From positions 3,254,501 through 3,318,500 of the forward strand of contig NZ_CP022121.1 in assembly GCF_002224645.1 (NCBI RefSeq): DNA of 64,000 nt. The letters are read 5' to 3'. Source of the stretch: Dehalobacterium formicoaceticum (GTDB lineage Bacteria > Bacillota > Dehalobacteriia > Dehalobacteriales > Dehalobacteriaceae). Shown piece by piece: positions 1,886-64,000 of this stretch; the first letter of the stretch is position 1, and the number at the start of each line of letters is the position of its first letter. The translations under genes and the position numbers were made by a program. Under the pieces are notes generated by a model, which ran no database searches, was not told where the DNA came from, and saw nothing but the letters and a program-made list of their open reading frames with translations.

Positions 1886-2047
1886 CTGAGAGATTAGCTG
1901 TAGACCAACCAGTTTGCTCCGTCGGTGTCTTTTGACTTTCCAGAGTTGAGTCCTGACGCGGTCCTTTTACCTGAAAGTTTCACTTTCAATTTGCTAAAAT
2001 CAAAAGCTTGCTTCTTCGGTACCCAATGGGATTCTCCCACGTCTTTC
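1865..2047 (-). promoter_or_regulatory. Tandem glycine riboswitch
   Basis: Read on the minus strand, the leader of grdX holds two consecutive glycine-aptamer-like units. The first (about 2047-1951) contains GGGAGAATCCC, ACCGAAG and the conserved end TTTCAGGTAAAAGGAC. The second (about 1950-1865) contains ACTCTGGAAAGTC, ACCGACGGAGCAAACTGG and CTCTCAGGTAAAAAGACAG. These match the known glycine riboswitch blocks (ACCGRMGG and CTCTCAGGTAAAAGGACAGAG-like). The 3' strand of aptamer 2 overlaps the 5' arm of a terminator hairpin, so glycine binding probably controls read-through into grdX-grdE. Confidence 0.9.
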
Positions 2048-2148
2048 ATACTCAAATACTATTCATTTTATAAAACGAATTTTATTTTGGTAAAATTATT
2101 TACAGGAAATCAAAAGCTTCTTATATCAATTATTATTTAATTATTTGC

Positions 2149-49882: not shown

Positions 49883-50551
49883 TTAATCGAAAACCTCCAG
49901 CACTTCTTCCATTCTCCGCCTTGTCTTTGGCCGATGATCCCTGTTTTTATAGCCAAAGGCAATCATGCAAGACAGCCTGAAATGTTCAGGATCATAGACC
50001 CCTTCTTTAATCAGAATCTCCTCCACCTCTTCCCGGTCAAAGCCCTCGATGGGGGTTGAATCCACACCCAAGATGGCCGCAGCGGTCAGCATATTGGTAA
50101 AGGGAATATAGGTTTGTTTGCAGGTCCAGTCAAATAATGCTCTTTCACTTTCCATCAGCTTAAAATCTTTTTCCTGGAAATTCTTAAACTTTTCCGTTCG
50201 GGCCGGGATCTGATCATCAGGAAACTGCTGAATTTCCTTGGTAATATATTGAATATATTCGGAATCATAGCGCATATCCTGATTGCTCCGCGCCAGAATC
50301 AGTACAAAATGGCTGGCGCCGTCAATGGATTTTTCCGCCCCCCAGGAATATGGTCTTATTTTTTCTTTGATTGCTTGATTATTCAGTAAGACAAATTTCC
50401 ATGGTTCATAGCCCATGGAACTGGGCGAAAGTCTGCCCGCCTCCATGATCACCATAAAATCCTCATCTGCTACTCTCTTTTCCGGGTCATAGCCTTTGCA
50501 TGTATATCTATTTTGAAAGGTTTCTAAAATAAATTTTCTTGCCTCCTGCAT
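49883..50551 (-). CDS. Nitroreductase-family flavoprotein
   Basis: A 222-aa FMN-dependent oxidoreductase (NfsB type): NRYTCKGYDPEKRV at the start, SPSSMGYEPWKFVLL, and AAILGVDSTPIEGFD. Its start is 14 bp from the HAD gene's stop in the same direction, so it may belong to the RuBisCO-like-protein cluster. The natural substrate is unknown. Confidence 0.93.
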   Translation of the reverse strand: MQEARKFILETFQNRYTCKGYDPEKRVADEDFMVIMEAGRLSPSSMGYEPWKFVLLNNQAIKEKIRPYSWGAEKSIDGASHFVLILARSNQDMRYDSEYIQYITKEIQQFPDDQIPARTEKFKNFQEKDFKLMESERALFDWTCKQTYIPFTNMLTAAAILGVDSTPIEGFDREEVEEILIKEGVYDPEHFRLSCMIAFGYKNRDHRPKTRRRMEEVLEVFD

Positions 50552-50565
50552 TCCAGATCACCCCT

Positions 50566-51222
50566 TTAAACCATTAATTGTAAGGCTTGGGCAAAGTCAT
50601 CGATGAAAAGATCACATATCTCCTTCATTTCTGCTTCTTCCTTACCCCGGTTGGAATCGTCCCGCACCCCAACGACATAAAAACCGGCTTCCTTTGCCAC
50701 CTGACAAGCCAGCAAAGAATCTTCAAAGACCATACATTCCTTTGGTTCCATGTGAAATCTTTGGGCGCAATGGATAAAGATCTCCGGGCTGTCCTTGGTG
50801 GTCTTTAGCTCGTCAATGGTAATGATATAATCCAAAAATTGATCGGCCCCTGTTCTTTTTACGGCTGCTTCCGCAAAATCCCGCATATTGGCGGTTGCCA
50901 GGCAAATTTTTAGACCCTTCTTGGATAGCTGCTCCATAAATTCAAATACATGGGGCTTTAACTGAATTTTATCTCGATAAATTAAAGCTACCTCGTCTAT
51001 CATAAATTTAAAAATTTCTTCCGGGGAGGCCTCCAAATGGTATTCCTTTTTGATATAGGATGCCCCATCCCGGAAACCTTTGGGCTTAATCTCCCGTAAC
51101 ATGTCATCATTGGGACTGATGCCGTGCTTTGCCAAAAGCTTCTTCAGCATCTCATCAATATAATTCATCGAAGTTACAATGGTGCCGTCAAAATCAAGGA
51201 TAGCTAATTTTTTCTGATTCAT
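50566..51222 (-). CDS. HAD-superfamily phosphatase
   Basis: A 218-aa hydrolase with all HAD motifs: LDFDGTIVTS (nucleophile Asp10 in DFDGT), CLATANMRDFAEAA (motif II), and VFEDSLLACQVAKEAG (motif IV), with an alpha-helical cap as in phosphoglycolate phosphatase or beta-phosphoglucomutase. It follows the RuBisCO-like gene by 68 bp in the same direction. In the methionine salvage pathway a HAD phosphatase (MtnX) acts right after a RuBisCO-like enolase (MtnW), so it may similarly remove the phosphate that the FGGY kinase adds. Confidence 0.9.
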   Translation of the reverse strand: MNQKKLAILDFDGTIVTSMNYIDEMLKKLLAKHGISPNDDMLREIKPKGFRDGASYIKKEYHLEASPEEIFKFMIDEVALIYRDKIQLKPHVFEFMEQLSKKGLKICLATANMRDFAEAAVKRTGADQFLDYIITIDELKTTKDSPEIFIHCAQRFHMEPKECMVFEDSLLACQVAKEAGFYVVGVRDDSNRGKEEAEMKEICDLFIDDFAQALQLMV

Positions 51223-51289
51223 TTTATTATTTTAATCCATTTCATTTTTTTTGATTCATCAAATTCCAAGACTCTCACTTCATCCGACC

Positions 51290-52618
51290 TTAATTCGTCA
51301 ATTCAAAGATGGATTTATGAGGATCATAAATCCCCCACTGATCAATGGCCGCTTTTAATTCCCCATGTTCTTTGGCATAATCTGACAAAGGAATGTTCTT
51401 CATGGCCGCCTCTGCTGCCTGATTTAAGGCTTTGACACCTGCTTCCAAACCCAGGGGATGAGCATGCATCCCGGCCCCGGCGCCAATGACAATATCGTTG
51501 CCCAAATCCTGCATCATCGCCGGGATCATGCCCGGATGAATGCCGGCACAGGGACTGGGGAAGGTTGGTTTCAGATCATGGAAAGGAGCCTGTAATGCCT
51601 GGGCGACCCGCACATATCTTTCCTTCATCCCGGGAACTTTACCATAGGCACTGTTGTAGACGACAAGATCCGCACCGTCTAATCTCATAAATTTACCGTG
51701 CACCAAATGGGAGGACAGTCCGGTATTTTCCCCCAAATACATGGCTCCGGCAAAGCAGGGATGGGCAAGGAGGGGCACATTGATCTCCGAATCTTCCGCC
51801 AAAGCTGCCAAACTGCCGTATCCTGAAGCATGCACATTTAACATCAAGGCTTCCGCCCCCAGCTCAAGGGCTCTTTTTGCTTTTTGCAGCATAATGTCCT
51901 GGCGATTGGTGATATTGGGGAAATAAAGGACTTTTTTGCCGGTCTCCTCATAAACTTCGTGCACAACCTGAACACAGGCTTTAATGCGGTCTTCCAAAGG
52001 CGCATGCACCGGATCGGCAATTAATTCGTCATCTTTAATAATATCTACTCCGGCTAAAGCCAGTTGTCTGAACTGTCTTTTGATTACATCGACGGGAATC
52101 CCGGTGCAAGGCTTGATCATGGCCATTACGGGCGGCCTTTCTTCGATGTTCAATAATTTCCTTAAGCCCTGAATCCCAAATTTCGGCCCTTTAAAGCCGG
52201 CGGTAAAGCTCTTGGGAAATTCCAATTCCAATAGCTTTAAATTATTGGTCATGGAAATATTGCCGAATACCGTGCTTAAAAGCTCCGGCATTTGATGGCC
52301 GATATTTTTCCAGGGGAAAGCGATTCTTACGATGCAAGACTTTTCTCCTTCCGGTGCATAAGCCTCATATCCGGGGACGGGAAAGACGCCGATAACCCGA
52401 CCCACGTGTTTCCGTCTCACTTCTGGTGTTTCATCGGGTACCGGCATCCATGTGCCTGTTGTCTGCTCTACCGCCACTGCTCCGGCCCGCATTAAAAAGT
52501 CACTGGTCTCCGCTTTCATTAAATAGGTGGCCACAATAAATTCGTCTAAGTTCAATGATTCTGGCTGACAAAAAATAATGGGATCATATTTTGTATGCAT
52601 AATCTTTGCACGCTCCAT
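51290..52618 (-). CDS. RuBisCO-like protein (form IV)
   Basis: A 442-aa RuBisCO large-subunit homologue. By alignment to spinach numbering it keeps Glu60 (here Glu51), Thr65 (Thr56), Asn123 (Asn120), Lys175 (Lys169), the carbamate/metal triad Lys201-Asp203-Glu204 (Lys195, Asp197, Glu198 in IIKDDEL), His294 (His286) and Lys334 (Lys327). It has lost Lys177 (Cys171), Arg295 (Pro), His327 and the SGG phosphate loop (CAG). It cannot be a true carboxylase but keeps the metal centre for enolase or isomerase chemistry. It begins two bases after the FGGY kinase stop. The substrate is unknown. Confidence 0.92.
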   Translation of the reverse strand: MERAKIMHTKYDPIIFCQPESLNLDEFIVATYLMKAETSDFLMRAGAVAVEQTTGTWMPVPDETPEVRRKHVGRVIGVFPVPGYEAYAPEGEKSCIVRIAFPWKNIGHQMPELLSTVFGNISMTNNLKLLELEFPKSFTAGFKGPKFGIQGLRKLLNIEERPPVMAMIKPCTGIPVDVIKRQFRQLALAGVDIIKDDELIADPVHAPLEDRIKACVQVVHEVYEETGKKVLYFPNITNRQDIMLQKAKRALELGAEALMLNVHASGYGSLAALAEDSEINVPLLAHPCFAGAMYLGENTGLSSHLVHGKFMRLDGADLVVYNSAYGKVPGMKERYVRVAQALQAPFHDLKPTFPSPCAGIHPGMIPAMMQDLGNDIVIGAGAGMHAHPLGLEAGVKALNQAAEAAMKNIPLSDYAKEHGELKAAIDQWGIYDPHKSIFELTN

Positions 52619-52620
52619 TC

Positions 52621-54252
52621 TTATGAATTTTTATTTAATACAGGATTGCTTTTAAACAATTCCTCCTGATACCTGGCTAAATCGTCATCATTTTCGTGAT
52701 TCTTCATGGTTGGATCCAATTCCAGCTCCCGCAAATATGAACATACATTAAAAGTATCTGACATTTGAACCTTTAATAATCCCTGATGACAATAATAGGC
52801 ATTTCGATAATAAATGGCATGGGCTTTATTGGGCTGATATGTTTTATCCGGAATTAGCAATTGGGCCAAGGTTTCTTTGATATCGGAAATATCCCCCACA
52901 GCATAAGCTGCCACCAACGCGCTGGCCAGTGTAGCACCTTCTTTTCTCTTTAATGTTACACCTTTGGCACTCAGGGCATCTGATTTGATTTGATTCCAAA
53001 CATCACTTTTACTGCCCCCTTCAGTGAAGATCACGTTATTAATATCCACACCTACATTTCTGATTTTGTCTGTAAAAGTGACATATTCATAGGCGATGGA
53101 TTCCAGAATGGCCCGCCACAGAACTCCGGTATCGGTAGCACTGGACATATTTAAGAAACATCCGGTGGCATTGGCTGCTTCATTACATCCCCCTTGTAAA
53201 TAGGGGAAAAACATGGTGCCATTAGATCCCGGGGGAACATTTTCTGCCAGGGCATTGGCTTCTTCATAAAAACTATTATCCCCGGTCCGGCCGATGACTC
53301 TGTCCCGAAACCACTGGAGGGACAGTCCCCCGGTGCGAATATAACCCCAGTAATAGTAGGTATCCGGTAGTGTTCCCGTAGTGAAGTACAAACCGGAATT
53401 GCGGCTTAGTTCCTCATTGATGCCATCCACCATCACACCGAACATGGCGGCGGTTCCCGCCACATCAGCAGCCATACCCGGTGACACAATCCCGCAGCCT
53501 AAGAAGGACTGCATGGTATCTCCGGCACCTGCCACAATGGGAACGCCCTGGGGCAGTCCGGTAAATTCTGCGGCCTCTTGGGAAAGATTGCCCACGATAT
53601 CCCAGGGTTTTACGATGCGGGGCAATATCTCCATCGGGATGCCAAACATGTCCATCTGTTTCCGGGACCAGGTCTTTTCTACAGCGTTAAAGCCGATTAA
53701 CCAGCCGGAGATGGTGCTCCAGTCGATAAACATATCCTTGGCTTTTAATCCGGCTAATTTAGATAAAACATAAGGCCCGTTATTCATGATTTTGGCACCG
53801 TGTTTTTTAAATGCTTCATGATTTTTTAAGAGCCACATGGCGATGACAGTGGGCTGTAACGCCTCAACAATGGAGTTGCCGCTTTCTTCAATCCAAATCG
53901 GTTCACAATTTTCTTTAATCCACTTTGCTTCTTTTTCTGCCCGGGAATCCAGATAGGGAATAAATGGAGTGATGGCATTGCCCTCTTCATCCACCCCCAC
54001 AACCCCGCAAATGATCCCATCACCACAAATTGCCCGTACATCTCGGGGATCGATACCGCTTTTGGTTAAGCATTGTTTGATGCCATTTAATGCTGATGTC
54101 ACATAAGCATCAGCGTCCAACTCTGCCCAGCAGGGCTGAGGATATAATATTTCATTTGCTGTAGCATGTTGAGCAACACTATTAAAATTTTCATCATAAA
54201 GCACAACTTTGGTGCTTTGGGTTCCGCAATCGAGGCTGATATAGTATTTCAT
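52621..54252 (-). CDS. FGGY-family carbohydrate kinase
   Basis: A 543-aa sugar kinase. The N-terminal phosphate-binding motif is YISLDCGTQSTKVVLY; the second domain has GAGDTMQSFLGCG and the C-terminal signature FTEGGSKSDVWNQIKSDAL. The length and WAELDADAYV stretch recall xylulokinase-like members. It should phosphorylate a polyol or ketose that is then used by the adjacent RuBisCO-like protein. It follows the SorC regulator by 40 bp. Confidence 0.92.
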   Translation of the reverse strand: MKYYISLDCGTQSTKVVLYDENFNSVAQHATANEILYPQPCWAELDADAYVTSALNGIKQCLTKSGIDPRDVRAICGDGIICGVVGVDEEGNAITPFIPYLDSRAEKEAKWIKENCEPIWIEESGNSIVEALQPTVIAMWLLKNHEAFKKHGAKIMNNGPYVLSKLAGLKAKDMFIDWSTISGWLIGFNAVEKTWSRKQMDMFGIPMEILPRIVKPWDIVGNLSQEAAEFTGLPQGVPIVAGAGDTMQSFLGCGIVSPGMAADVAGTAAMFGVMVDGINEELSRNSGLYFTTGTLPDTYYYWGYIRTGGLSLQWFRDRVIGRTGDNSFYEEANALAENVPPGSNGTMFFPYLQGGCNEAANATGCFLNMSSATDTGVLWRAILESIAYEYVTFTDKIRNVGVDINNVIFTEGGSKSDVWNQIKSDALSAKGVTLKRKEGATLASALVAAYAVGDISDIKETLAQLLIPDKTYQPNKAHAIYYRNAYYCHQGLLKVQMSDTFNVCSYLRELELDPTMKNHENDDDLARYQEELFKSNPVLNKNS

Positions 54253-54291
54253 CTAGATCCCCCTTAACATTTTTGCTTTCATTTCTTTTAT

Positions 54292-55218
54292 TTATTGTAA
54301 CAATTCCCTGGCTGTCTCTGAGTTGGTACAAAAAATATCAATGATCCCTCCCTTTAAAGCAGCCCGTATGGCTTCTGTCTTTCCCAGTCCCTCGGCGGCA
54401 GCTATAACACAGGGACATTTTTTGATGTGCCTGATTTTTGCACCTAAAAACATATCGCTCTGTTCCTTTAGAATTTCGTTACCCTCTGCATCAATAAAGG
54501 AACCGGCAATAATTGCCTGTGCCCCCTTTTGATGGGCCGTTAAAATTTCTTCATTACTGATATCGCATTGACTAAGGCTGGATTCAGTGGTAGTTTGTCC
54601 TATTCCGGTAATAATGATGTCCAGTTTTTCGTAGGCTTCAAAAACCGGTTTGATGGCCGGATTATTGATTAATTCTTTTCTGATTTTTTCTTCCCGGATA
54701 ACCATGGGCGTACTTAATACCATATGACCGGCATTCAAACGTTCGGAAAATCTTCGGCAATTATTATTGGCATACCAGTCGATGCCCCGGGATGTCGCCC
54801 CGGCCAGCAAGGGAATAAATTTCAGATCTTCACTATTGTGAATCATCGTATAGCTGGAGCACATTGCCAGTGTTTTGCCGGCGGAGATGCCAATATAGTC
54901 ACCTGGACGTACTTTTGATGAAACAACTCTGGATAGTTCTTCGGCAATTGCTCTTAATGGTTCCTTGCCGTAGGTATCTACCACCAGGACATCGGAAAGA
55001 TGAAATTTATTTTTAATATCATCGGCTAATTTGTAAGCTTCAGAAAAAGGATCCTTGACGGTAATGGAAACAATGTTTTTTTCTCTGGCTTCAGATAAAA
55101 TCCTGCTCACTTGAGGCCGGGAGATATACATCTTCTTGGCAATTTCACTTTGACTTAAACCTTCAAGATAATATAATTTGCTAATATCTACCATCAATTT
55201 CAACCTGGTTGAATCCAT
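54292..55218 (-). CDS. SorC/DeoR-type sugar-binding regulator
   Basis: A 308-aa regulator: N-terminal HTH (YYLEGLSQSEIAKKMYISRPQVSRIL) and a C-terminal sugar-phosphate-binding domain (GISAGKTLA, ITGIGQTTTESS). I start it at MDSTRLK (ATG at 55218), the family's usual beginning; the frame is open 24 codons further. It heads the kinase-RLP-phosphatase cluster and probably senses the phosphorylated sugar made by the kinase. Confidence 0.91.
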   Translation of the reverse strand: MDSTRLKLMVDISKLYYLEGLSQSEIAKKMYISRPQVSRILSEAREKNIVSITVKDPFSEAYKLADDIKNKFHLSDVLVVDTYGKEPLRAIAEELSRVVSSKVRPGDYIGISAGKTLAMCSSYTMIHNSEDLKFIPLLAGATSRGIDWYANNNCRRFSERLNAGHMVLSTPMVIREEKIRKELINNPAIKPVFEAYEKLDIIITGIGQTTTESSLSQCDISNEEILTAHQKGAQAIIAGSFIDAEGNEILKEQSDMFLGAKIRHIKKCPCVIAAAEGLGKTEAIRAALKGGIIDIFCTNSETARELLQ

Positions 55219-55332
55219 CAAATCACATCTTTCAGCAAGTGTTATGATCATTCTAACTAAAATTATACTATAAGAAAAAGCATTCTTCAATCATTTGTGC
55301 ACTTATGAACATTTGTGCAATAAAACAGAGGG

Positions 55333-55399
55333 GGTAAAACAGGGGACGGTTCTTTGTTCGATGATGCTCATCGAACAAAGAACCGTCCCCTGTTTTACC
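55333..55399. repeat. Perfect 67-bp palindrome of the GGGGACGGTTC family
   Basis: Two 32-bp arms that are exact reverse complements (starting GGTAAAACAGGGGACGGTTC) separated by TGC. It contains the GGGGACGGTTC core seen at 20860-21008. It lies between the end of the nitrogenase-like operon and the start of sorC and could form a long RNA hairpin, though no T run follows. Confidence 0.95.
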
Positions 55400-55411
55400 A
55401 CTGTATAACCT

Positions 55412-56725
55412 TTAGAAATTAAGACCGTTTAATAGCTGCTCTACCAGCAGAAGACTCCCCTGGATACCTAAATGGGTTTTGGGGATCACATCGAGATAGC
55501 CCAGGCTGGGCAGTTCAATTTCGATGCCGCTGAAGATCTGCTCCTGTAATTTCAGCTGGGCAATGGTACTCCCGTTGGACAAGACAATATCGCTTTTGGC
55601 TGCAAAAATATCCCGCTGCCAGGCAGACTCCAGGTGGTGCTCCTTTAACAAATCCTGCACTTGTTCTTCATATAAACCAGGATCATCCTCCGGGAGATTT
55701 AGGCTTGTCGGCACCATGCCCAGGTATTGAAAAAGAAAATCCGTATAAGCCAGGAGGGCTGAGGACGGGGCTTCAACTGCGAAGGTCGTTCCCTTGGGCA
55801 GTCCGGTCAGAGCATATACATTGGAAATCGGAATATAGGCGTCGGCCCGGGCTTTTTCCAGGGCCGAGATCAAGGAACGGCTTGTAAAGGATGCTCCCCC
55901 GGCCAGGCTCTCCTCCCTTAAAACTCCTTCAAAATAGGACTGAGTCAGATCGAAGCCGATGGGCAGCCCCCTGTCAAATAAAAAGTAGGGCATCCCCAAA
56001 GCTTCTTGCAGATATTTTGCCACCTCCAGACCTAATTCCGGATAGAGGATCACATTCAGGTCGGCCTGGGGAATTTTTTTGATTTCCTCCAGGCTGGTAT
56101 CTGCGCACAAAACACAATTGATCTGGAGACCGCATGCATTGAAAAGCCGTTCCATTTCCTGAATATCTCCTAGAAAATATTTATTGTAAATGGAAATTCC
56201 GATTAAGTTGACCAAATTGCCCTGTTTCTTGCCCGGTGCTGTTTCTAGAGGAAGACTTTTCAACAAGACAATCAATGCATCCTGAAAGCCACGATAAAAG
56301 TTTTGGGAATATCCGGGATTCTCGATGGTAATCACATGGGAATGGTGAATTTTTTTGGCGGCAATCCCAGCCAAATCGTCTCCGATTAAAGCAGCCCCGG
56401 GTGAATTGACGATCGCCACTAAATCCTGATCCTGTTTGTCAATATAATCTAATAAATCATTCAGTTTCTCCCCGCTGCCATATACATAATCATAGCTGTC
56501 CAGATAGGTACAAGGTACTCTGGGTTGTTTAAAATAAAATTTATCCGGATAGTTCAGGGGGTCGAAGGATGTTTGCCTGGGAAAGCGGCTGTCGGAAATA
56601 GCGCTGTGGTAATATTTGCAGCCTGTAGGCCCGTTGATAATCACCACGGACTTGTTGATGCCTTCCAAAGCAAAAACGATGCCCGATAAACTATCGGGTG
56701 TGATATTTTTGGAATAATATTTCAT
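55412..56725 (-). CDS. Nitrogenase component 1-like protein, NifK-type
   Basis: A 437-aa member of the NifD/NifK/BchN/BchB superfamily. Near the N-terminus it has Cys36 (NGPTGCKYYH) and Cys72 (RVPCTYLDS), at positions used for cluster ligands, but the third position is Pro109 in NSPGAALIGDDL where other members have TC before xxxxIGDDL. The C-terminal half has no FeMo-cofactor His/Cys that I can identify. Its start overlaps the end of the NifH-NifD fusion by 35 bp, so the two are translationally coupled and probably form a heteromer like NifDK or BchNB. It is the last gene of the operon. Confidence 0.87.
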   Translation of the reverse strand: MKYYSKNITPDSLSGIVFALEGINKSVVIINGPTGCKYYHSAISDSRFPRQTSFDPLNYPDKFYFKQPRVPCTYLDSYDYVYGSGEKLNDLLDYIDKQDQDLVAIVNSPGAALIGDDLAGIAAKKIHHSHVITIENPGYSQNFYRGFQDALIVLLKSLPLETAPGKKQGNLVNLIGISIYNKYFLGDIQEMERLFNACGLQINCVLCADTSLEEIKKIPQADLNVILYPELGLEVAKYLQEALGMPYFLFDRGLPIGFDLTQSYFEGVLREESLAGGASFTSRSLISALEKARADAYIPISNVYALTGLPKGTTFAVEAPSSALLAYTDFLFQYLGMVPTSLNLPEDDPGLYEEQVQDLLKEHHLESAWQRDIFAAKSDIVLSNGSTIAQLKLQEQIFSGIEIELPSLGYLDVIPKTHLGIQGSLLLVEQLLNGLNF

Positions 56726-58901
56726 CTTTTTTCCACCCTTCCACCAGATTTATCTGCATAAGCTTGGCCCATCTTTTGGCCAAGCACAATCCGGAAAAGA
56801 AACCCACATCGGGGGTATAGGGGATGGTATCGGCCACCACCTTCCCTTCCAAATCGGAAATGGCATAATTGGACAGGAAAAGATCCGGCCTTAGTTCTTG
56901 AATATCCTTTTCCCGGGCTCTCGGATCATATTTTTCCTCCAGGGGAAATTGACCGCCAAAGCGAGTCACAAAAACAGCATCCTGAGAAAAATCCAAAATG
57001 CCGACCTTTACAATCTCCATCCCGGCATCCAGGGCCACTTCCAAAAGCCAATCCAGTTGATGGTTGTAGGCAACCACCATTAATTTTTTCCCTTTTAGCA
57101 CCTTTTTCAATGCTTCTATTTCACGCCGGTAAACCGCTTCATTGTCCGCAATAACTTGAGGCAGCAGATGGGTCTTATGGAAAAAATCCGCCACCTTGGC
57201 CAGCCAGTTTTTCGTTTCATAAAAACCGATGGGGAACGGATCATCCAAAAAAACCGCCCCATACTCCTTTTGAAAAAAGCGTTTTAGCAGCCGCCCGGTA
57301 TAATCCTGGTGGGCCAGGATATTCAAAGGCGCCCTCATAAAATTCCGGATCTGATCCACAGTGGTTTCGCACAAATAACGGCAGTTGACCGTGATGCCTA
57401 AAGGGGTCAGTAAATCTGTAATGGCAGTGAAATTATCAGGGGTGTTTTTGGCCACCACCTTTTCCGAGATGATGTTTACGGTATCCGGCAAGGGAGATGC
57501 TTCCCGGTCAATCAAAGCTTTGGCAATGTTGAGATAGGCCAGGATCATGCCCTGAAGATAATCTCCTCCGATATTGCCGTCGGTGACAATGGGGATAACA
57601 GGTAGATCTTCTTCCTCCAAAGCGGCCATGGCGGTAAGGTCATCTCCGATGATGCCTGAAGGACAGGTACTGACCAGGATCACCGCCTTGGGCTGATCTC
57701 TTTTGGCCTCCTCTACCTTTCCCTTGAGCAGCTGGGCACCGCCAAAGACCATGGTTTTTTCATCCATTTTTGTCGACATCAGATTTGGGGCGATAGATAC
57801 AGGCAAAAGGCTGCCCCGTTCGAAAAGGCCCCTTCTGCCGCAAGAAGTCACCCCTTGATAGGTAATATAAGTGCAGCTTTTCGGCCCATGGGCCACGACA
57901 ATGGCATCCTGCACATGGACACTTATGGTAACAGCCCCATTAAAGGCACAGCCCCGCAGGGGTTCCTGGGAAACAATGCTCTTGGAAAAATATTGATCAT
58001 CATCCAGTTTGGTAGGGTATGCCTCTGCTCCCGCCATAATTTCTGACGGGGCAGCATCCTCCCTTTGCTCCGGTTTTTTAGGAACCGGGGACTGCTCCAG
58101 TCCTAAGACAATCTTTTCTAATTCTTCATCTGTTAAAGGCTTGGCAGCATACAATAGGGGACCTGCGATAATCTTTTGAGCCAGTTCCTTAAAGATCCCG
58201 GCTAGGGGCGAATGACTCCATCCTTCCACGATAGTCTGCCCGGTTTTTTCACCCAGGGCAAATTCATCCCTTCTGGGAATGACCGCAAAGACAGGCAGCT
58301 CCACCGCCTGGGCAAAGCCTTCCACCCGTTCCTTTTCACCCTGCACGTTACGCATATTCCAAATCAGTCCGGCCACCCGTTTTTTACCGTAATCGTAATT
58401 TTTAATACCCCGCAAAATATTATTGGCCGCATAGAGGGACATGAACTCTCCTGAGGTAACGATATAAATTTCATCGGCATATTCCTCACGAATAGGTACG
58501 GCAAATCCTCCGCAGACCACATCCCCCAGCACATCGTAGAGCACCAGGTCATAGGCGCGCTTCTGCAGATTCAAGGCATTGAGCAGTTCAAAGGTGGATA
58601 AAATGCCTCTCCCCGCACACCCCACCCCGGGCTCGGGGCCTCCCGCCTCAATACAGTCAACGCCGCCAAATCCAGTGCAGAGGATATCACTCAATTGATA
58701 ATCCATAGGATTGGTGTTCTTCAGATAATCCAGTACGGTTTGAATTTTTTGACCTTTGAGCAGCAATCGGGTGGAATCATGCTTGGGATCACAGCCGATT
58801 TGCAGCACATGCCGGTCTGCTTGGGACAAAGCGGCGGAAATATTGGCGCAGATGGTGGATTTGCCGATGCCGCCTTTGCCGTAGATGGCAACCTTTTTCA
58901 T
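56691..58901 (-). CDS. NifH-NifD-like fusion protein (reductase plus nitrogenase component 1)
   Basis: A 736-aa protein joining two components that are normally separate. Residues 1-~265 are a NifH/BchL-type iron-protein: P-loop GKGGIGKST (8-16), QIGCDPKHDST, and both [4Fe-4S] ligands Cys95 (GVGCAGRG) and Cys130 (DVVCGGFA). A Pro/Glu-rich linker (~270-305) leads to a NifD-type domain with the three cluster cysteines Cys318 (RGCAFNG), Cys343 (GPKSCTY) and Cys413 (STCPSGIIGDDL). The fusion means a fixed 1:1 ratio of electron donor and acceptor, unlike nitrogenase. It follows the propeller gene by 41 bp. Likely ATP-driven reduction of an unknown substrate. Confidence 0.92.
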   Translation of the reverse strand: MKKVAIYGKGGIGKSTICANISAALSQADRHVLQIGCDPKHDSTRLLLKGQKIQTVLDYLKNTNPMDYQLSDILCTGFGGVDCIEAGGPEPGVGCAGRGILSTFELLNALNLQKRAYDLVLYDVLGDVVCGGFAVPIREEYADEIYIVTSGEFMSLYAANNILRGIKNYDYGKKRVAGLIWNMRNVQGEKERVEGFAQAVELPVFAVIPRRDEFALGEKTGQTIVEGWSHSPLAGIFKELAQKIIAGPLLYAAKPLTDEELEKIVLGLEQSPVPKKPEQREDAAPSEIMAGAEAYPTKLDDDQYFSKSIVSQEPLRGCAFNGAVTISVHVQDAIVVAHGPKSCTYITYQGVTSCGRRGLFERGSLLPVSIAPNLMSTKMDEKTMVFGGAQLLKGKVEEAKRDQPKAVILVSTCPSGIIGDDLTAMAALEEEDLPVIPIVTDGNIGGDYLQGMILAYLNIAKALIDREASPLPDTVNIISEKVVAKNTPDNFTAITDLLTPLGITVNCRYLCETTVDQIRNFMRAPLNILAHQDYTGRLLKRFFQKEYGAVFLDDPFPIGFYETKNWLAKVADFFHKTHLLPQVIADNEAVYRREIEALKKVLKGKKLMVVAYNHQLDWLLEVALDAGMEIVKVGILDFSQDAVFVTRFGGQFPLEEKYDPRAREKDIQELRPDLFLSNYAISDLEGKVVADTIPYTPDVGFFSGLCLAKRWAKLMQINLVEGWKKDEILFQKYHTR

Positions 58902-58942
58902 AATATCACTTCTTTTTTATGGTTATTTTTAAAACTCTTTGT

Positions 58943-60142
58943 TCACTTCTTCAGGATATCGGGAAACTTTCCTTTTAACTGGTCCAGTGTTACATCTTTT
59001 AAACGGATGGTTTTCATTTCTCCCTTATTTCCCCCGGCTAAGACATCCCCATTGGGTAAGAGAAGCAAAGCGGAGACATATTGATTAAAGCCTAAAATCT
59101 TTTGACCAAGTTTCCAGGAATTTTCCTTATCAGGAATGCGGCTCAGGATTTGCATGGCACCGAAGCTTCCCCCCACCAACACCTCATCCGGTGATAAAAG
59201 CAAAAAGCCGGCAACATAATGATCAAAACCTGTGATTTCCTGAAGGATTTCCCAGGTATTTTTGTTTTGGGCATTGTGTCCCAGGATTTTGATGATACCG
59301 TCGCTTCCCCCCATGAGCACATGGCCCTCCGGCAGCAGCAAAGCCGTGGTGATATAGCTTTGTTTACCATCAACAGTTTCCTGTACCAGCCAATTATCAC
59401 CAACATCAGGATTATGCCGGAGAATTTTTATTTCTCCTTTATATCCGGCAATGAGGATCCTCTCCTCCGGCAGCAATAAGGATACTGTTGAGACAGCTTC
59501 CATGGTTTGGTGGATTTTCCAGATGTTACTCCCCTCGTCAAAGCGGATGATTTCCACTTCGCCCCGAATTCCCCCCACCAATACATCCCCATTGGGCAGG
59601 AGCAATAAATTTTCCACATAATGGTCACTGCCCTCAATCTCTTGCTTTATAATCCATCGGCCTTCCTGCCCGGGGTCGGGACCCAGCACTTTCAACTCCC
59701 CGGAGACACCCCCCGCCAGTACATCACCGTCAGGCAGGTGGATGGCAGTATGGGAATAATCATTAAACCCGGTAATGATTTGGCCGACCTTCCAGCCGAA
59801 CTCATCTTGAGATGGGGGGCTGAGAACTTTTATGCCCTCCTGACTACCCGCCACCAGAATCTGGCCATCGGGCAGCAATAATAAATCGTGGATATAAGCA
59901 TCAAATGCACTGAGACTTTGGTCCACTTCCCACAAGCCTTTAATGAGGGCTGGATACTGGGCCTGAAAGGCAGGCAGCAGTTCCGTCAGGATCCGGTCTT
60001 GTTCCCCCTGCACCTGGGTCATCTTTTCCTCAAATTCAGGGGTCAAGTAACCGCTATCATTTAACTGCCGATACAGTTCTTCCAGTTCATCCAGCAGACC
60101 TTTGTATTTGATCATCATTTCTTTTAATGTTTGAACATTCAT
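58943..60142 (-). CDS. Seven-repeat beta-propeller protein with N-terminal coiled coil
   Basis: A 399-aa protein, no signal peptide. After a helical N-terminus (about 1-80, YKGLLDELEELYRQL) it has seven repeats of about 45 residues with the pattern Y-x-x-x-LLLPNGDVLVGG-x-x-GE-[IV]K-[IV]L, ending in KDVTLDQLKGKFPDI. Seven such units should close a seven-bladed propeller of the WD40/Kelch-like type. Propellers are platforms for protein assembly. It lies four bases after the VWA gene, so its partner is probably the VWA/AAA pair or the nitrogenase-like complex. Confidence 0.83.
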   Translation of the reverse strand: MNVQTLKEMMIKYKGLLDELEELYRQLNDSGYLTPEFEEKMTQVQGEQDRILTELLPAFQAQYPALIKGLWEVDQSLSAFDAYIHDLLLLPDGQILVAGSQEGIKVLSPPSQDEFGWKVGQIITGFNDYSHTAIHLPDGDVLAGGVSGELKVLGPDPGQEGRWIIKQEIEGSDHYVENLLLLPNGDVLVGGIRGEVEIIRFDEGSNIWKIHQTMEAVSTVSLLLPEERILIAGYKGEIKILRHNPDVGDNWLVQETVDGKQSYITTALLLPEGHVLMGGSDGIIKILGHNAQNKNTWEILQEITGFDHYVAGFLLLSPDEVLVGGSFGAMQILSRIPDKENSWKLGQKILGFNQYVSALLLLPNGDVLAGGNKGEMKTIRLKDVTLDQLKGKFPDILKK

Positions 60143-60146
60143 GATC

Positions 60147-62255
60147 TTAGCTCCTAACTCCCATATCCTTTAAAGCATTTTTTAATGTTACGGTTAACTT
60201 CTCCGGCAAACTTTTTAAATCTTGCCCGATAGCAATGCCCAGTTGCAGGCCGGGGATATTGTTATTCCAGACCTCATTGAAAAGATAACTTTCCGTTTCA
60301 TTTACTTCCCCGATCTGAAAACCAAAAACGTAGATCCCCATCTGGATCAATTGTTGAATGCGTGCCGCCGTTTCCAGGGGATGGTCCGGTTCCCCATCGG
60401 TGATTTCGAAAATAATTTTTTTCAGTTTTTGATTCTTGAGCATCAGTTTATCCTTAAGGCTTAAGGTGTTTAAGATATCTGCCAATGTCAGAGCATCATT
60501 GGTGCAGCCCTTAATGGCTCTAATTGCGGTAATGGACTTAATAATATCCGCCTCATTTTTTTGAAAGCGCTTGCTTCTCTCAAACTCCTTAACCTTTTGA
60601 AAACCGGTGCCAAATAAATATACTTCGGAATAAACCTTGAGCTTATTGTTGATTTCCTTCCGGGTTTCATCCAGATAAATATTAAAATCCTTGATGGACA
60701 GCATGGTTAAACAGGCGGCTTGCTTGGCGGCAATGATTTTATTTTGGTCCATGGAGCGGGAACAGTCAATCACAAAGGAGACCTGGATGGTTTCTGGCTT
60801 TTCGATGGCGCTGGGCTTGACCTCCACTTCATCAAAAATCAAAGGATGGTAACGGATCCCTTTCAATTGATTTTCAATAATATTGGGATACTCCCCCACA
60901 AAGCTGTCTACATTTAATCGTCCCCGACGCTTTTTATCCATAACAATGTCATCGTATTCAATGGATCGTTCCACTAATTCCTTCCAAAACATTCTCATGC
61001 TGTTGCGGTAATCCGTGACGCTGGCTCGGATGCTCTCATAATCTGTACGCTCCAGGGAGGCAATTCCGTGTTTTTGATCAAACTCAGCCTTTGCTTTTTC
61101 CCGGTTATGAGCCTCCCTTTCTTCGGGACTCATATTGTTGTAAGTATCCTGTTTGGCAAACTCCTCCAGAATTTTCTTAATCTGCTCCTGGGAGATGGCT
61201 TCTTGCTTCGGATCCCCTTGGGGGCTGTTTTTAAAGGGGTTAAAATCTTCACCTTGATTTGTCTCTTCCTCAGATAATACCCCGGGATCCTCCTCCTTCC
61301 TCTTGGATCGGCCCCGGGAATTTTTTTTAGTTCGGGAGGAATCCGGTGCCCCAATAATGTCGGAAAAAGGCAGACCGCGTAGTTCATCATATAACAATTC
61401 CAGATACATGGGCTGGATGATATGACGAATAATTTGATAGCGCTTTTCAGTGTCCGTTAATTTGCCGACTCGGGGTTTTAAATTTTCGTCAACAATTTCT
61501 CTTAAATCCCTGCCCAGGATTTTTTTGTTGATCAGGGCCAAAACCTGAGGATCCACCCGGGTGATGTGGGCAGCGCCGCCTTTCAGTTCATTTTGAAACA
61601 GATAATAGATTAACTGCTGATGTTTAGGGAGAGTCATCAAGTTCTCTTGGTCATAGCCTAATTTTTGGTATAAGCTGGCCACATGATGATAGCCTTCGGC
61701 GGTAGCATAATAAGGGCTGCGTTTCCGTACCAGGTCGTTGACATAGATATCATCGAAAACAGTGTATAGGGTATAAAGTTCCTGATAGGCAAAATCAGTG
61801 ACCAGATCCTGATCAGGCAAAGGCTGGTCATCCCTGTTTTTTTCCGCCATGATCTCTGAAATGTGGTTGCCGGCTCCCTCTGCCCCTTGCTCCAGCTGTT
61901 CAAAATGCTTTAAGTAGGCACGGGGATTTTTGCGCATATCGATAAAATGACCCAGCTCGTGATAAAAGGCGAACTTGGTTTCTTCAACGGAATAGCCCTT
62001 TTCGATAAACCACAGGGCCGGAACAACCACCTTGTTCTCCTCCGGCTCGAAGGAGAAAACTTCCGCATCCGCCGATGCCTGGTAGGAAATAGAGGCATCC
62101 CCGGCAAAAGTCACTAAATCTCGGCTTTCCCGGCGGATCATGTCTTTCACCTGGGACAAGGAATTGCGCAGGCGCTCTTTTCTGAGCAACTCCTCCTTGA
62201 TTGCTTCCTGTTTAATTTGCTCTTCTTCCCTTTGAGGGTTATTTTCTTGATTCAT
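60147..62255 (-). CDS. VWA-domain protein with HExxH metallopeptidase-like segment
   Basis: A 702-aa cytosolic protein. The N-terminal half has a zinc-protease-like motif HELGH (His99-Glu100, His103) within a helical region; a charged linker follows (about 300-380); the C-terminal half is a von Willebrand A domain whose metal-ion site DxSxS is intact (Asp497-Ser499-Ser501 in FVIDCSRSMD). This is the layout of CoxE/NorD/DUF2201-type partners of MoxR ATPases. The ATG at 62255 has GGGAG eight bases upstream; an ATG five codons earlier does not. It follows the AAA ATPase gene by 64 bp. Confidence 0.85.
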   Translation of the reverse strand: MNQENNPQREEEQIKQEAIKEELLRKERLRNSLSQVKDMIRRESRDLVTFAGDASISYQASADAEVFSFEPEENKVVVPALWFIEKGYSVEETKFAFYHELGHFIDMRKNPRAYLKHFEQLEQGAEGAGNHISEIMAEKNRDDQPLPDQDLVTDFAYQELYTLYTVFDDIYVNDLVRKRSPYYATAEGYHHVASLYQKLGYDQENLMTLPKHQQLIYYLFQNELKGGAAHITRVDPQVLALINKKILGRDLREIVDENLKPRVGKLTDTEKRYQIIRHIIQPMYLELLYDELRGLPFSDIIGAPDSSRTKKNSRGRSKRKEEDPGVLSEEETNQGEDFNPFKNSPQGDPKQEAISQEQIKKILEEFAKQDTYNNMSPEEREAHNREKAKAEFDQKHGIASLERTDYESIRASVTDYRNSMRMFWKELVERSIEYDDIVMDKKRRGRLNVDSFVGEYPNIIENQLKGIRYHPLIFDEVEVKPSAIEKPETIQVSFVIDCSRSMDQNKIIAAKQAACLTMLSIKDFNIYLDETRKEINNKLKVYSEVYLFGTGFQKVKEFERSKRFQKNEADIIKSITAIRAIKGCTNDALTLADILNTLSLKDKLMLKNQKLKKIIFEITDGEPDHPLETAARIQQLIQMGIYVFGFQIGEVNETESYLFNEVWNNNIPGLQLGIAIGQDLKSLPEKLTVTLKNALKDMGVRS

Positions 62256-62319
62256 TTTTTGTTCTCCCATATTTTTGCCCGCCCTTCCTTATTTCAGGCA
62301 GACTCTTTCCGGCAAAAGG

Positions 62320-64000
62320 TCAGCTGATATCCTTGCTAAGTTTCTCCAAAGCTTTTTCAGTTAAATGCAGCTCTTCCATCTTTCCGGCAAAATCGGCATA
62401 TCGATCCATTTCAATTTTTTCTCCCATCGGTTCATCAAAAGTTATTTCCGGATAAATTTGACGGGCAGGCATCGGTCCGTATAAAATTTCAATCATTTCC
62501 CGAGGTGTTTTAATTTCCTCCGGTTTGCTGCGATATCGATATTCCGTTGATCTGATTTCATCAAACCCGGTTAAAGTTGAGCCCACAGGTTTTACCTGCA
62601 CATTCCATCCTTCGTTTTTTTGGAAAAAGCCAAAGCGTAAAGCCTGAGAAAAAATATAGCTTTGATCATCAGGATTGGTAATACTGGACAGAAAACCTTC
62701 CCACAAGGCTTTATCCAGGTCCTTTTCCTGGCCGGCATTCCATTGCTTTAAAACCCGCAGCACGTTGCGGATGGACAAAACGGAGCGTTCCAAGCGCGGT
62801 TCCAGAGCATCACCGGAGGATGTGGCTTGGGCCTGGCTGTCTTTCCATTTGCCGGAGAAAACATCCTGGGTGGTGCGAGCCAGCTGGGCCAGCTTAAATA
62901 GCTTATCAATGTACCGATCAATTTCCGGCAGCTTTAAAGCCCCGGAACGATCAGCCAGGACGGCAATCATAATATGGAAAAGCTCATTTTTTTCCGGATC
63001 CGTTTGATTATCCCAATTGCCCTCGTCTGTTTGAGGCAAATAATCATATTCAAAAATATCCAGGCGGGAGGCAAAGGCTTCATTAAAATCATGGGTACCG
63101 CTGTATCCGACAAAATTACTGCTTAAATTCCCGGTTCCGGTGATGGAAAAACCGTCGGCAATGACAATACGGTCGCCGCCGGGAATATAAGTGGTCTGAC
63201 CCGGTGAGCTTTGAATCACGTCATTTAAGGAGATCAAAACGGCATTGGGAATGGTATTGATCTCATCAATAATTACGGGTCTGCCCTCTTTTGCCCCTCG
63301 GTAAATTTCTTTTTCGATTTTTTCGATTTCCGTGCCAAAAGCCTGGTTTTTCAATTTATAAATCTCCAGGATCTTCCGGGCCGCCGCTTTTTCCGTCTGC
63401 CTGCGCAATTTATCCGACATTTTACTTAAGGCACGGTGATTCTCTTCTTGCCATGCCCCATATTCCCGGTTAAGATCCTCCATATGCTCCAGGATGGGCT
63501 TGTTGTCATATTTGGTTAATTTTAAGCCTTTTTCAATAAATAAATCCTGGGTCGATGTGTTTCTGGATCCGGAAATAAACAAAGGGGTGAATTTTTCCAC
63601 GGCTTCCGGATCGCCGCTTTCAAAAGCTTTTTTATATTCCTGCACTTGATGGTAATAAATATTACCGTATTTATTGACCTTTTCTTCCTTGGTTTTGTTT
63701 TGATTGTTTTTCAGCCACTTGACAAAAGCCTGGTCCGCTGCCTGCACAGCATGCTTATGCATCAGGTATTCTTTGGCGGTGACAATGGCCAGCTCGGTTT
63801 TACCGCCCCCTAGATGCCCGTGGATAAAGGTGGCTTGTCCCTCATTCATATTGGTCAGCATTCTTGCTTTACATATTTTTACATGAGCGGTCTGTACTAA
63901 ATTACCTTTTTGCACTTCTTCAATATAGTTTCTGTATTCCAGGGCATTGATGGCAAAATAAGCATCAGGATTGGTTTTTTTTAGCTCAGAGCGCTGATCC
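62320..64000 (-). CDS. MoxR-like AAA+ ATPase (5' end outside window)
   Basis: 560 codons are visible; the frame remains open to the window edge, so the true start lies beyond 64000. It has Walker A GHLGGGKTE, a long charged helical insertion (~180 residues) before Walker B PVIIDEINTIP, sensor-1 GTGNLSSNF and the arginine-finger region AFASRLDIFEYDYLP, in line with MoxR/CbbQ/NorQ-type ATPases. The insertion is much longer than in typical MoxR proteins. MoxR ATPases work with VWA proteins to remodel enzymes or insert metals; the adjacent VWA gene is the natural partner. Confidence 0.83.
   Translation of the reverse strand, partial: DQRSELKKTNPDAYFAINALEYRNYIEEVQKGNLVQTAHVKICKARMLTNMNEGQATFIHGHLGGGKTELAIVTAKEYLMHKHAVQAADQAFVKWLKNNQNKTKEEKVNKYGNIYYHQVQEYKKAFESGDPEAVEKFTPLFISGSRNTSTQDLFIEKGLKLTKYDNKPILEHMEDLNREYGAWQEENHRALSKMSDKLRRQTEKAAARKILEIYKLKNQAFGTEIEKIEKEIYRGAKEGRPVIIDEINTIPNAVLISLNDVIQSSPGQTTYIPGGDRIVIADGFSITGTGNLSSNFVGYSGTHDFNEAFASRLDIFEYDYLPQTDEGNWDNQTDPEKNELFHIMIAVLADRSGALKLPEIDRYIDKLFKLAQLARTTQDVFSGKWKDSQAQATSSGDALEPRLERSVLSIRNVLRVLKQWNAGQEKDLDKALWEGFLSSITNPDDQSYIFSQALRFGFFQKNEGWNVQVKPVGSTLTGFDEIRSTEYRYRSKPEEIKTPREMIEILYGPMPARQIYPEITFDEPMGEKIEMDRYADFAGKMEELHLTEKALEKLSKDIS

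Follow-up and report, generated by a model that had tools for sequence, protein, structure and literature searches.

The question raised by a tight row of five genes in the genome of Dehalobacterium formicoaceticum is whether they form one working system and what its nitrogenase-like members could do. The stretch analysed (64,000 nucleotides, called the window below) covers bases 3254501-3318500 of the 3.77-Mb single-contig genome. On its minus strand the list of open reading frames (ORFs) and Pfam confirm the five genes of an earlier note on this DNA, i.e., in the order of reading, a MoxR-like AAA ATPase, an HExxH-VWA protein, a propeller-like protein, a NifH-NifD fusion (NifHD) and a NifK-like protein; that note had proposed that the first three mature, load or reactivate the last two. 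The account to which we give an even chance as a whole has two modules lying head to tail, in which NifHD-NifK would be an ATP-driven reductase of a corrinoid or a related tetrapyrrole and the MoxR-propeller-VWA trio would be independent of it.

The NifHD fusion (56691-58901, minus strand, 736 aa) is a single ORF that matches Fer4_NifH (PF00142, 314 bits) and Oxidored_nitro (PF00148, 234 bits), with the NifH domain at approximately residues 1-266 and the NifD-like part at 303-736, and its NifK-like partner (55412-56725, minus strand, 437 aa) matches PF00148 with 150 bits. None of the NCBIfam cut-offs for NifH, NifD, NifK, Bch or Cfb was reached by the source pair or by the proteins of six relatives: against the curated models the source pair scored 317 bits for nifH (cut-off 394) and 102 bits for nifD (cut-off 654), while the NifH part had its best score on CfbC (330.6 bits, cut-off 402) and TIGR03282 gave 37.3 bits (cut-off 268.4). 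PF00148 has only three matches in the source genome.

Relatives were found by two short D-domain patterns, which matched 107 stretches, 61 of them confirmed and 59 distinct; the sample is uneven and three pairs of loci share a genome (L051/L078, L081/L101, and L095/L098). The 59 loci, many from metagenome-assembled genomes (MAGs), are labelled Bacillota, Actinomycetota, Spirochaetota, Chloroflexota, Acidobacteriota, Thermodesulfobacteriota, Thermoplasmatota, and Methanobacteriota, a spread over six bacterial phyla and archaea, and in most loci listed NifK is placed after the fusion, usually with a short overlap. Clostridium tetanomorphum and Sporobacter termitidis are among the carriers. A search of the source phylum added four genomes with the fusion (in two of them K overlaps it by 32 bp, in one K is directly downstream, and in one the locus is cut by a contig end), some of which recur, by sequence, among the 59 loci. 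In a superfamily tree of 69 rows, which included the comparison of the NifD part with Nif, Bch, Cfb, and Mar that the earlier note had named as a check, the D and K subunits of the family (17 rows each) formed their own clades (SH-aLRT 100 and 99, respectively), separate from the NifD/E, NifK/N, Mar, Bch, and Cfb-like rows, the tree being the product of a quick search with long Bch branches and an unsure deep order. The D part was also modelled with AlphaFold (mean pLDDT 85.9); the model has the superfamily fold and, among the 50 structure matches listed, resembles chains of nitrogenase, NifEN, Mar and DPOR to about the same degree, so it does not choose among these relatives or tell the substrate.

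The cysteines are more informative. Full D sequences were available from 53 of the 59 loci and K sequences from 50, which gives 54 D and 51 K rows with the source included. The three NifD P-cluster cysteines are kept in all 54 (318, 343, and 413 in the source fusion) and an extra D cysteine (D205) in 53. In the column of Cys275, the FeMoco/[Fe8S9C] ligand, no row has a cysteine (Tyr 31, Asn 6, Ser 5, His 3, Trp 3, Thr 3, Phe 2, and Val 1; the source has His), and four D rows have some cysteine within six columns of it. Histidine is likewise absent from all 54 rows in the column of His442, the other FeMoco ligand of NifD, where 31 rows, the source not among them, have Cys and the alignment is less sure. 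On the K side, the equivalent of Cys95 (Cys36 in the source) is kept in all 51 rows, Cys70 is replaced by Asp (44), Glu (6), or a gap (1), and Cys153 by Pro (51/51). Of the six P-cluster cysteines that mark a nitrogenase, the family thus has three of three in D and one of three in K, and this set, together with the absent FeMoco cysteine, predicts one [4Fe-4S] cluster per D-K pair, as in DPOR and COR. Nitrogen fixation was rejected on the absence of FeMoco ligands, the loss of two K P-cluster cysteines and the scores below the nifH and nifD cut-offs; the earlier note had also called it unlikely for what it described as a nitrogenase-like reductase, a description with which the model scores and the three PF00148 matches agree.

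Among the known systems, DPOR (BchLNB) and COR (BchXYZ) resemble the pair in their ATP-driven NifH-type donor and in the single [4Fe-4S] on the D-K pair (predicted here from sequence), the fourth ligand being Cys in the source family as in BchZ, and Asp in BchB. In contrast to both, the family lies in clades separate from BchN/B and BchY/Z, has its NifH fused to D, and scores far below the Bch cut-offs. CfbCD, from F430 biosynthesis, is the best model match of the NifH part and works in tetrapyrrole chemistry, but it has a single-subunit CfbD in a separate clade, whereas here a fused gene is accompanied by a second subunit and is mostly bacterial. MarHDK provides the closest solved relative of K by sequence (9d9u_C, an entry titled methylthio-alkane reductase), and the family shares with it the two D P-cluster cysteines that could be compared directly, the MarD row being partial; the Mar cluster ligands were taken from the available text of PMC12552129. 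Unlike in Mar, the column of MarD Cys270 has Cys in none of the 54 rows and two K cysteines are absent, the loss relative to MarK being read from the NifK columns as the MarK row is partial.

These differences bear on one rival explanation, that the pair is a methylthio-alkane-reductase-like enzyme of sulfur or methylthio-sugar metabolism, aided by the RuBisCO-like protein and sugar kinase encoded downstream. The RuBisCO-like protein (51290-52618) does match MtnW-type models, with 409 bits being exactly the PRK09549 cut-off, and the best solved relative of K is the Mar entry named above. With the [Fe8S9C]/FeMoco cysteine missing in all 54 rows, two of three K cysteines lost, the clade separate from MarD/MarK, and no match of the RuBisCO-like query in any of the 59 loci, we consider this explanation highly improbable, and a sulfur or methylthio role via the downstream gene was rejected on these grounds. 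In the part of PMC10418091 available, it is the group IV-A Mar-type genes, and not the NifHD-NifK family, that are tied to a methyltransferase cluster.

What the family may act on is suggested by its neighbourhood in other genomes. Cobalamin riboswitches were scanned in 44 of the 59 loci (all but 11 from archaea and 4 that are short) and the expectation was computed on 42 (two had no genome-wide count), using genome-wide counts for the genomes of 50 loci and the source; riboswitches are present in 41 of the 51 genomes searched. In the 671,849 bases of the 42 loci, 19 cobalamin riboswitches were observed vs. 1.61 expected from each genome's own density, and loci with a riboswitch numbered 13 vs. 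1.56 expected. The riboswitch lies 269 bp before NifHD in L053 and 166 bp before it in L055, stands one gene ahead in L050, L102, and L103, heads a row that ends in NifHD-NifK in L077, L082, and L085, leads a row with adenosyltransferase-like and BtuCD-like genes in L067, and follows NifK in L051, L078, and L100. Counting riboswitches together with B12 salvage or uptake genes, 18 of the 59 loci, from several lineages, carry a B12 marker (L050, L051, L053, L055, L056, L057, L064, L067, L070, L076, L077, L078, L082, L085, L097, L100, L102, and L103).

Some of these rows are telling in their gene content. For instance, in Spirochaetaceae/Treponema (L064, genes named by Pfam, and L070, named by similarity) the order is adenosyltransferase-like, BtuF-like, FecCD, ABC ATPase, NifHD, NifK, CobU, TIM, CobT, and CobS; in Chloroflexi (L076) it is CobN, CbiZ, TIM, NifHD, and NifK; and in Holophagaceae (L082) it is riboswitch, CbiZ, TonB receptor, TonB, NifHD, and NifK. 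A CobA gene adjoins in Formimonas (L053), and a Methanomassiliicoccaceae MAG (L097) has the end of CobN two genes upstream and a BtuF-like gene downstream. In Marinisporobacter (L051, L078) a DUF71 gene lies 9 bp upstream, and a B12 subgroup of DUF71 is described as clustering with BtuCDF in the accessible part of PMC3541065. A corrinoid-salvage operon of Dehalobacter (riboswitch, BtuFCD-type transporter, CbiZ, CobN) is induced by corrinoid starvation, nitrogenase being unmentioned in the available text of that paper (PMC4285132). When the B12 label (15/54 rows, with L097 counted as not linked as its B12 context was found later) was placed on the D tree, 10 gains or losses were needed, and the association is therefore not one inherited block.

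Several observations weigh against a B12 role. The label still shows some clustering on the tree (a value as low came from 7 of 500 shuffles), and 41 of the 59 loci have no B12 marker within the stretch covered (3.2 to 21.3 kb per locus, with 44 of the 59 scanned for riboswitches). Other partners occur, such as Fur-ZnuA (L060, L063), glutaminase (L047), FeFe hydrogenase (L049), and an FAD oxidoreductase (L052). NifHD has no riboswitch ahead of it on its own strand in L056, L057, and L100 (the one in L057 points in the opposite direction and that in L056 lies further downstream), and two matches are weak (34.6 bits in L085 and 34.5 in L100, threshold 31.5). Thirteen B12-related queries had a match within 1.5 kb in 11/57 NifHD loci (13/57 over the whole stretch) and in 0/25 other NifH loci, a control that is biased as the queries were drawn from family loci, and the BtuF, BtuC, and DUF4430 types among them are not B12-specific. 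The riboswitch control, 0/20 other NifH loci within approximately 1.5 kb, is neutral but small (74 kb, in which about two would be expected at the family rate). The TonB receptor of L082 scores higher on a heme than on a B12 model, both below cut-off, and binders of heme and siderophores are also among the matches of the BtuF-like proteins. Finally, the source locus has neither a riboswitch in the Rfam scan of the window nor an adjoining B12 gene, and the listed genome-wide cobalamin riboswitches of the source genome include none near the five genes, so its own link to B12 is by homology.

Part of this evidence can be read in two other ways. The pair could reduce the ring of a non-corrinoid tetrapyrrole (e.g., of heme or sirohydrochlorin type) for use or detoxification. 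In the text available of PMC12552129, [4Fe-4S]-only relatives such as CfbCD and DPOR reduce tetrapyrrole C-C double bonds, which would fit such a role. The heme-type receptor match in L082 and the CobN genes beside NifHD in L076 and L097 point in the same direction. This explanation is unlikely in our view, given the cobalamin riboswitches and the CobU, CobT, CobS, and CbiZ neighbours, whose products act on complete corrinoids. Alternatively, NifHD-NifK could serve metal or siderophore handling, with the B12 link a by-product of shared ABC transporter types, as the Fur-ZnuA partners of two loci would allow and as the available text of Dos Santos 2012 (PMC3464626) suggests in proposing metal transport coupling for some nitrogenase-like genes beside ABC transporters. 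Transporter type, however, does not explain the riboswitch enrichment or the Cob, CbiZ, and CobN genes, and we regard this alternative as improbable.

We consider it nearly an even prospect that NifHD-NifK is an ATP-driven corrinoid reductase for cobamide salvage, often under riboswitch control, in Bacillota, Spirochaetota, Chloroflexota, Acidobacteriota, and some archaea. A NifH-type donor with a D-K pair that holds a single [4Fe-4S] and no large cofactor is known to reduce a bound organic substrate. From this pattern we infer a route in which electrons from ferredoxin would enter at the [4Fe-4S] of the NifH domain and, driven by ATP hydrolysis, move one at a time to one [4Fe-4S] cluster whose ligands are three cysteines from D and one from K. 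From there they would reach a substrate bound in the D-K cavity; as in DPOR and COR, no FeMoco-type cofactor would take part. The substrate would most likely be a corrinoid (or a close tetrapyrrole) that the cell takes up or remodels. The likeliest single step would be the reduction of a salvaged corrinoid towards Co(I), the alternative being ring reduction: corrinoid adenosyltransferases require Co(I), and CobU, CobT, CobS, and CbiZ work on corrinoids after adenosylation, which makes cobalt reduction of salvaged corrinoids the simplest fit.

The source genome also has a second nitrogenase-like set near 2189533 (L011:4241-9904, genome approximately 2189240-2194903). There, genes for NifH, a protein of 148 aa, and a NifD-like protein come directly after a cobalamin riboswitch and are followed by a transporter row of BtuF/FecCD/ABC type. 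In the 69-row tree this NifD-like protein lies outside the clade of the source NifHD-NifK pair, and the setting of the set, with riboswitch and transporter, points the same way as the B12 reading. A further NifH-like sequence (L012:3331-3715, genome approximately 2602330-2602715) is in two pieces in different frames and is a probable pseudogene.

It remains to say what the other three genes are. The MoxR-like ATPase (62320..64473, minus strand, 717 aa, complete in L010:320-2473) reaches 473 bp beyond the window, with 62320..64000 inside it; it matches Pfam AAA_5 weakly (E 0.003, below cut-off) and has the motifs GHLGGGKT (Walker A), DEIN (Walker B-type), and GTGN. The VWA protein (60147-62270, minus strand, 707 aa) matches VWA (PF00092) above cut-off (E 9e-6) and carries HELGH (HExxH) at residue 104 and DCSRS (DxSxS, MIDAS-like) at 502, and the propeller-like protein (58943-60142, minus strand, 399 aa) has WD40-type matches, all below the curated cut-off. 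The spacing given in the earlier note holds for the 4 bp between VWA and propeller, the 41 bp between propeller and NifHD, and the 35-bp overlap of NifHD and NifK; the MoxR-VWA gap is 49 bp from the first ATG of VWA and 64 bp only with the next in-frame ATG. In a consensus scan of 54000-64000 the 49-, 4-, and 41-bp gaps were free of minus-strand terminator-like sites, so a single transcript is possible for the five genes, and directly after NifK a hairpin of 20 perfect pairs with a tail rich in T (55343-55389, not assigned to a strand) is a likely terminator. It is also one copy of a repeat: the genome has 59 occurrences of its 16-base arm (24 forward and 35 reverse), often in inverted pairs, and none of the reversed control.

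One five-gene system, with metal-site insertion or repair in the nitrogenase-like enzyme as the task of the AAA/VWA/propeller set, would fit the close spacing of the genes and the presence of a hairpin behind NifK alone, and MoxR-VWA pairs of the NorQ-NorD type do activate metal enzymes. The survey of other genomes speaks otherwise. No relative of MoxR, VWA, or propeller was found among the called ORFs of the 59 NifHD loci, nor by a six-frame scan of them with two versions per trio query at E 0.001; the five families, which the earlier note had expected side by side elsewhere if they formed a system, therefore occurred together in 0/59. Formimonas, of the same family as the source, has NifHD-NifK, and a MoxR or VWA relative was not found there. 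A VWA relative was present in 1/398 genomes of the phylum sample, the source itself (E 1e-10), and in 2/43 genomes of the class, the source and G003; in G003, which is of the source family as well, the end of a MoxR-like gene and a propeller/VWA remnant adjoin the end of an oleate hydratase gene, and there is no NifHD fusion.

Among 50 NifHD-bearing genomes, two have a VWA relative, both in a row of MoxR, propeller, and VWA on a contig different from that of NifHD, a co-occurrence that could be counted for the five-gene system. When the class of genome G067 was searched regardless of NifHD, 4/291 genomes had a VWA relative, and the comparison of 2/50 with 4/291 gives no clear excess among NifHD genomes. 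All four of these class genomes have the row of MoxR, a propeller-sized gene, and VWA, with a propeller sequence match in three and none for the fourth (L177). In none of the four is there a NifHD fusion, one having a separate NifH, and in all four the trio (L175:1154-8351, L176:1918-9147, L177:5002-12350, L178:1247-8364) lies next to a gene of 597-604 aa for an oleate hydratase, two of the products being above the NCBIfam cut-off, while the remaining pair share 82-90% identity with the first and match Pfam MCRA. In total, a MoxR/propeller/VWA row without an adjoining NifHD was found in six other genomes, the middle gene matching by sequence in five.

The trio is thus independent of NifHD in both directions, each occurring without the other, the outcome that the earlier note had named as speaking against it, and a single five-gene system is not supported. 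As a conserved system this reading, including the maturation or reactivation role of the trio, is largely refuted, and we hold it to be very unlikely. The joint row is, as far as seen, specific to the source genome, where the two modules may share a transcript, with some local benefit. The trio would instead be an independent AAA-VWA set of chaperone type, and an orphan module with a link to fatty acids via oleate hydratase is possible. It resembles the MoxR-VWA pairs and the MoxR-vWA ternary systems (eLife 2020, PMC7159879, as far as its available text goes) in having AAA, VWA, and a third component in a row, and differs from the ternary systems of that text in a propeller-like third component, a VWA protein with HExxH, and the oleate hydratase neighbour in four genomes. 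Searches in other directions gave little: the VWA protein had no match among plasmids, phages, and viral contigs, the propeller none among viral contigs, and MoxR one 31% match over 89 residues in a viral contig, at a locus whose ORFs include no VWA or propeller relative. The trio had no hit among the PADLOC defence models at E 0.1 (VMAP, iSTAND, and FtsH partners were not profile-searched), and MoxR and VWA none among solved structures at E 1.

Upstream, beyond the MoxR gene, are an AMP-binding ligase gene and then divergent genes. Downstream, a minus-strand row (49883-55290) encodes a sugar-binding-domain regulator, FGGY kinase, the RuBisCO-like protein, HAD phosphatase, and nitroreductase, possibly a candidate phosphosugar pathway with a RuBisCO-like enzyme. 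A glycine riboswitch (1949-2049, minus strand) is the only Rfam match of the window above gathering score. Genes for DUF3786 occur approximately 7 kb upstream of the MoxR gene (L010:9178-9831) and, in a Peptococcaceae MAG, directly upstream of NifHD (L096:5824-6429).

In the literature searched, which left most subscription journals outside, nothing was found on nitrogenase-like genes with MoxR and VWA, nothing that ties nitrogenase-like genes to a cobalamin riboswitch (the search for NifH with this riboswitch gave an Azotobacter genome paper only), and no B12 link of the fused class; the word nitrogenase is absent from the main text of PMC10344839, PMC9768040, and PMC10327494, which concern the probable class or family of the source. 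The fused class itself has been in print since 2012 as nifH-nifE/nifN-like genes (PMC3464626), with the same layout and FeMoco ligands absent, as here, and reported as data not shown from Archaea, Firmicutes, and Deltaproteobacteria; in contrast to our proposal, the available text gives it no function or B12 link, and the riboswitch and salvage-gene context now provides a testable one.

What results is a new functional reading of a known clade, in which the observation of the earlier note is confirmed and its system claim is not supported. The correction of a tempting five-gene story also sets apart MoxR-propeller-VWA, which has oleate hydratase beside it in four genomes, as a second orphan module. 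To our knowledge, nitrogenase-type ATP-driven reduction has so far been tied to N2, chlorophylls, F430, and organosulfur compounds. If the corrinoid reading is true, this type of reduction would also serve vitamin B12, which would add a further type of tetrapyrrole to the substrates of the family, and it would provide an explanation of how, at very low potential, salvaged corrinoids could be prepared in strict anaerobes.

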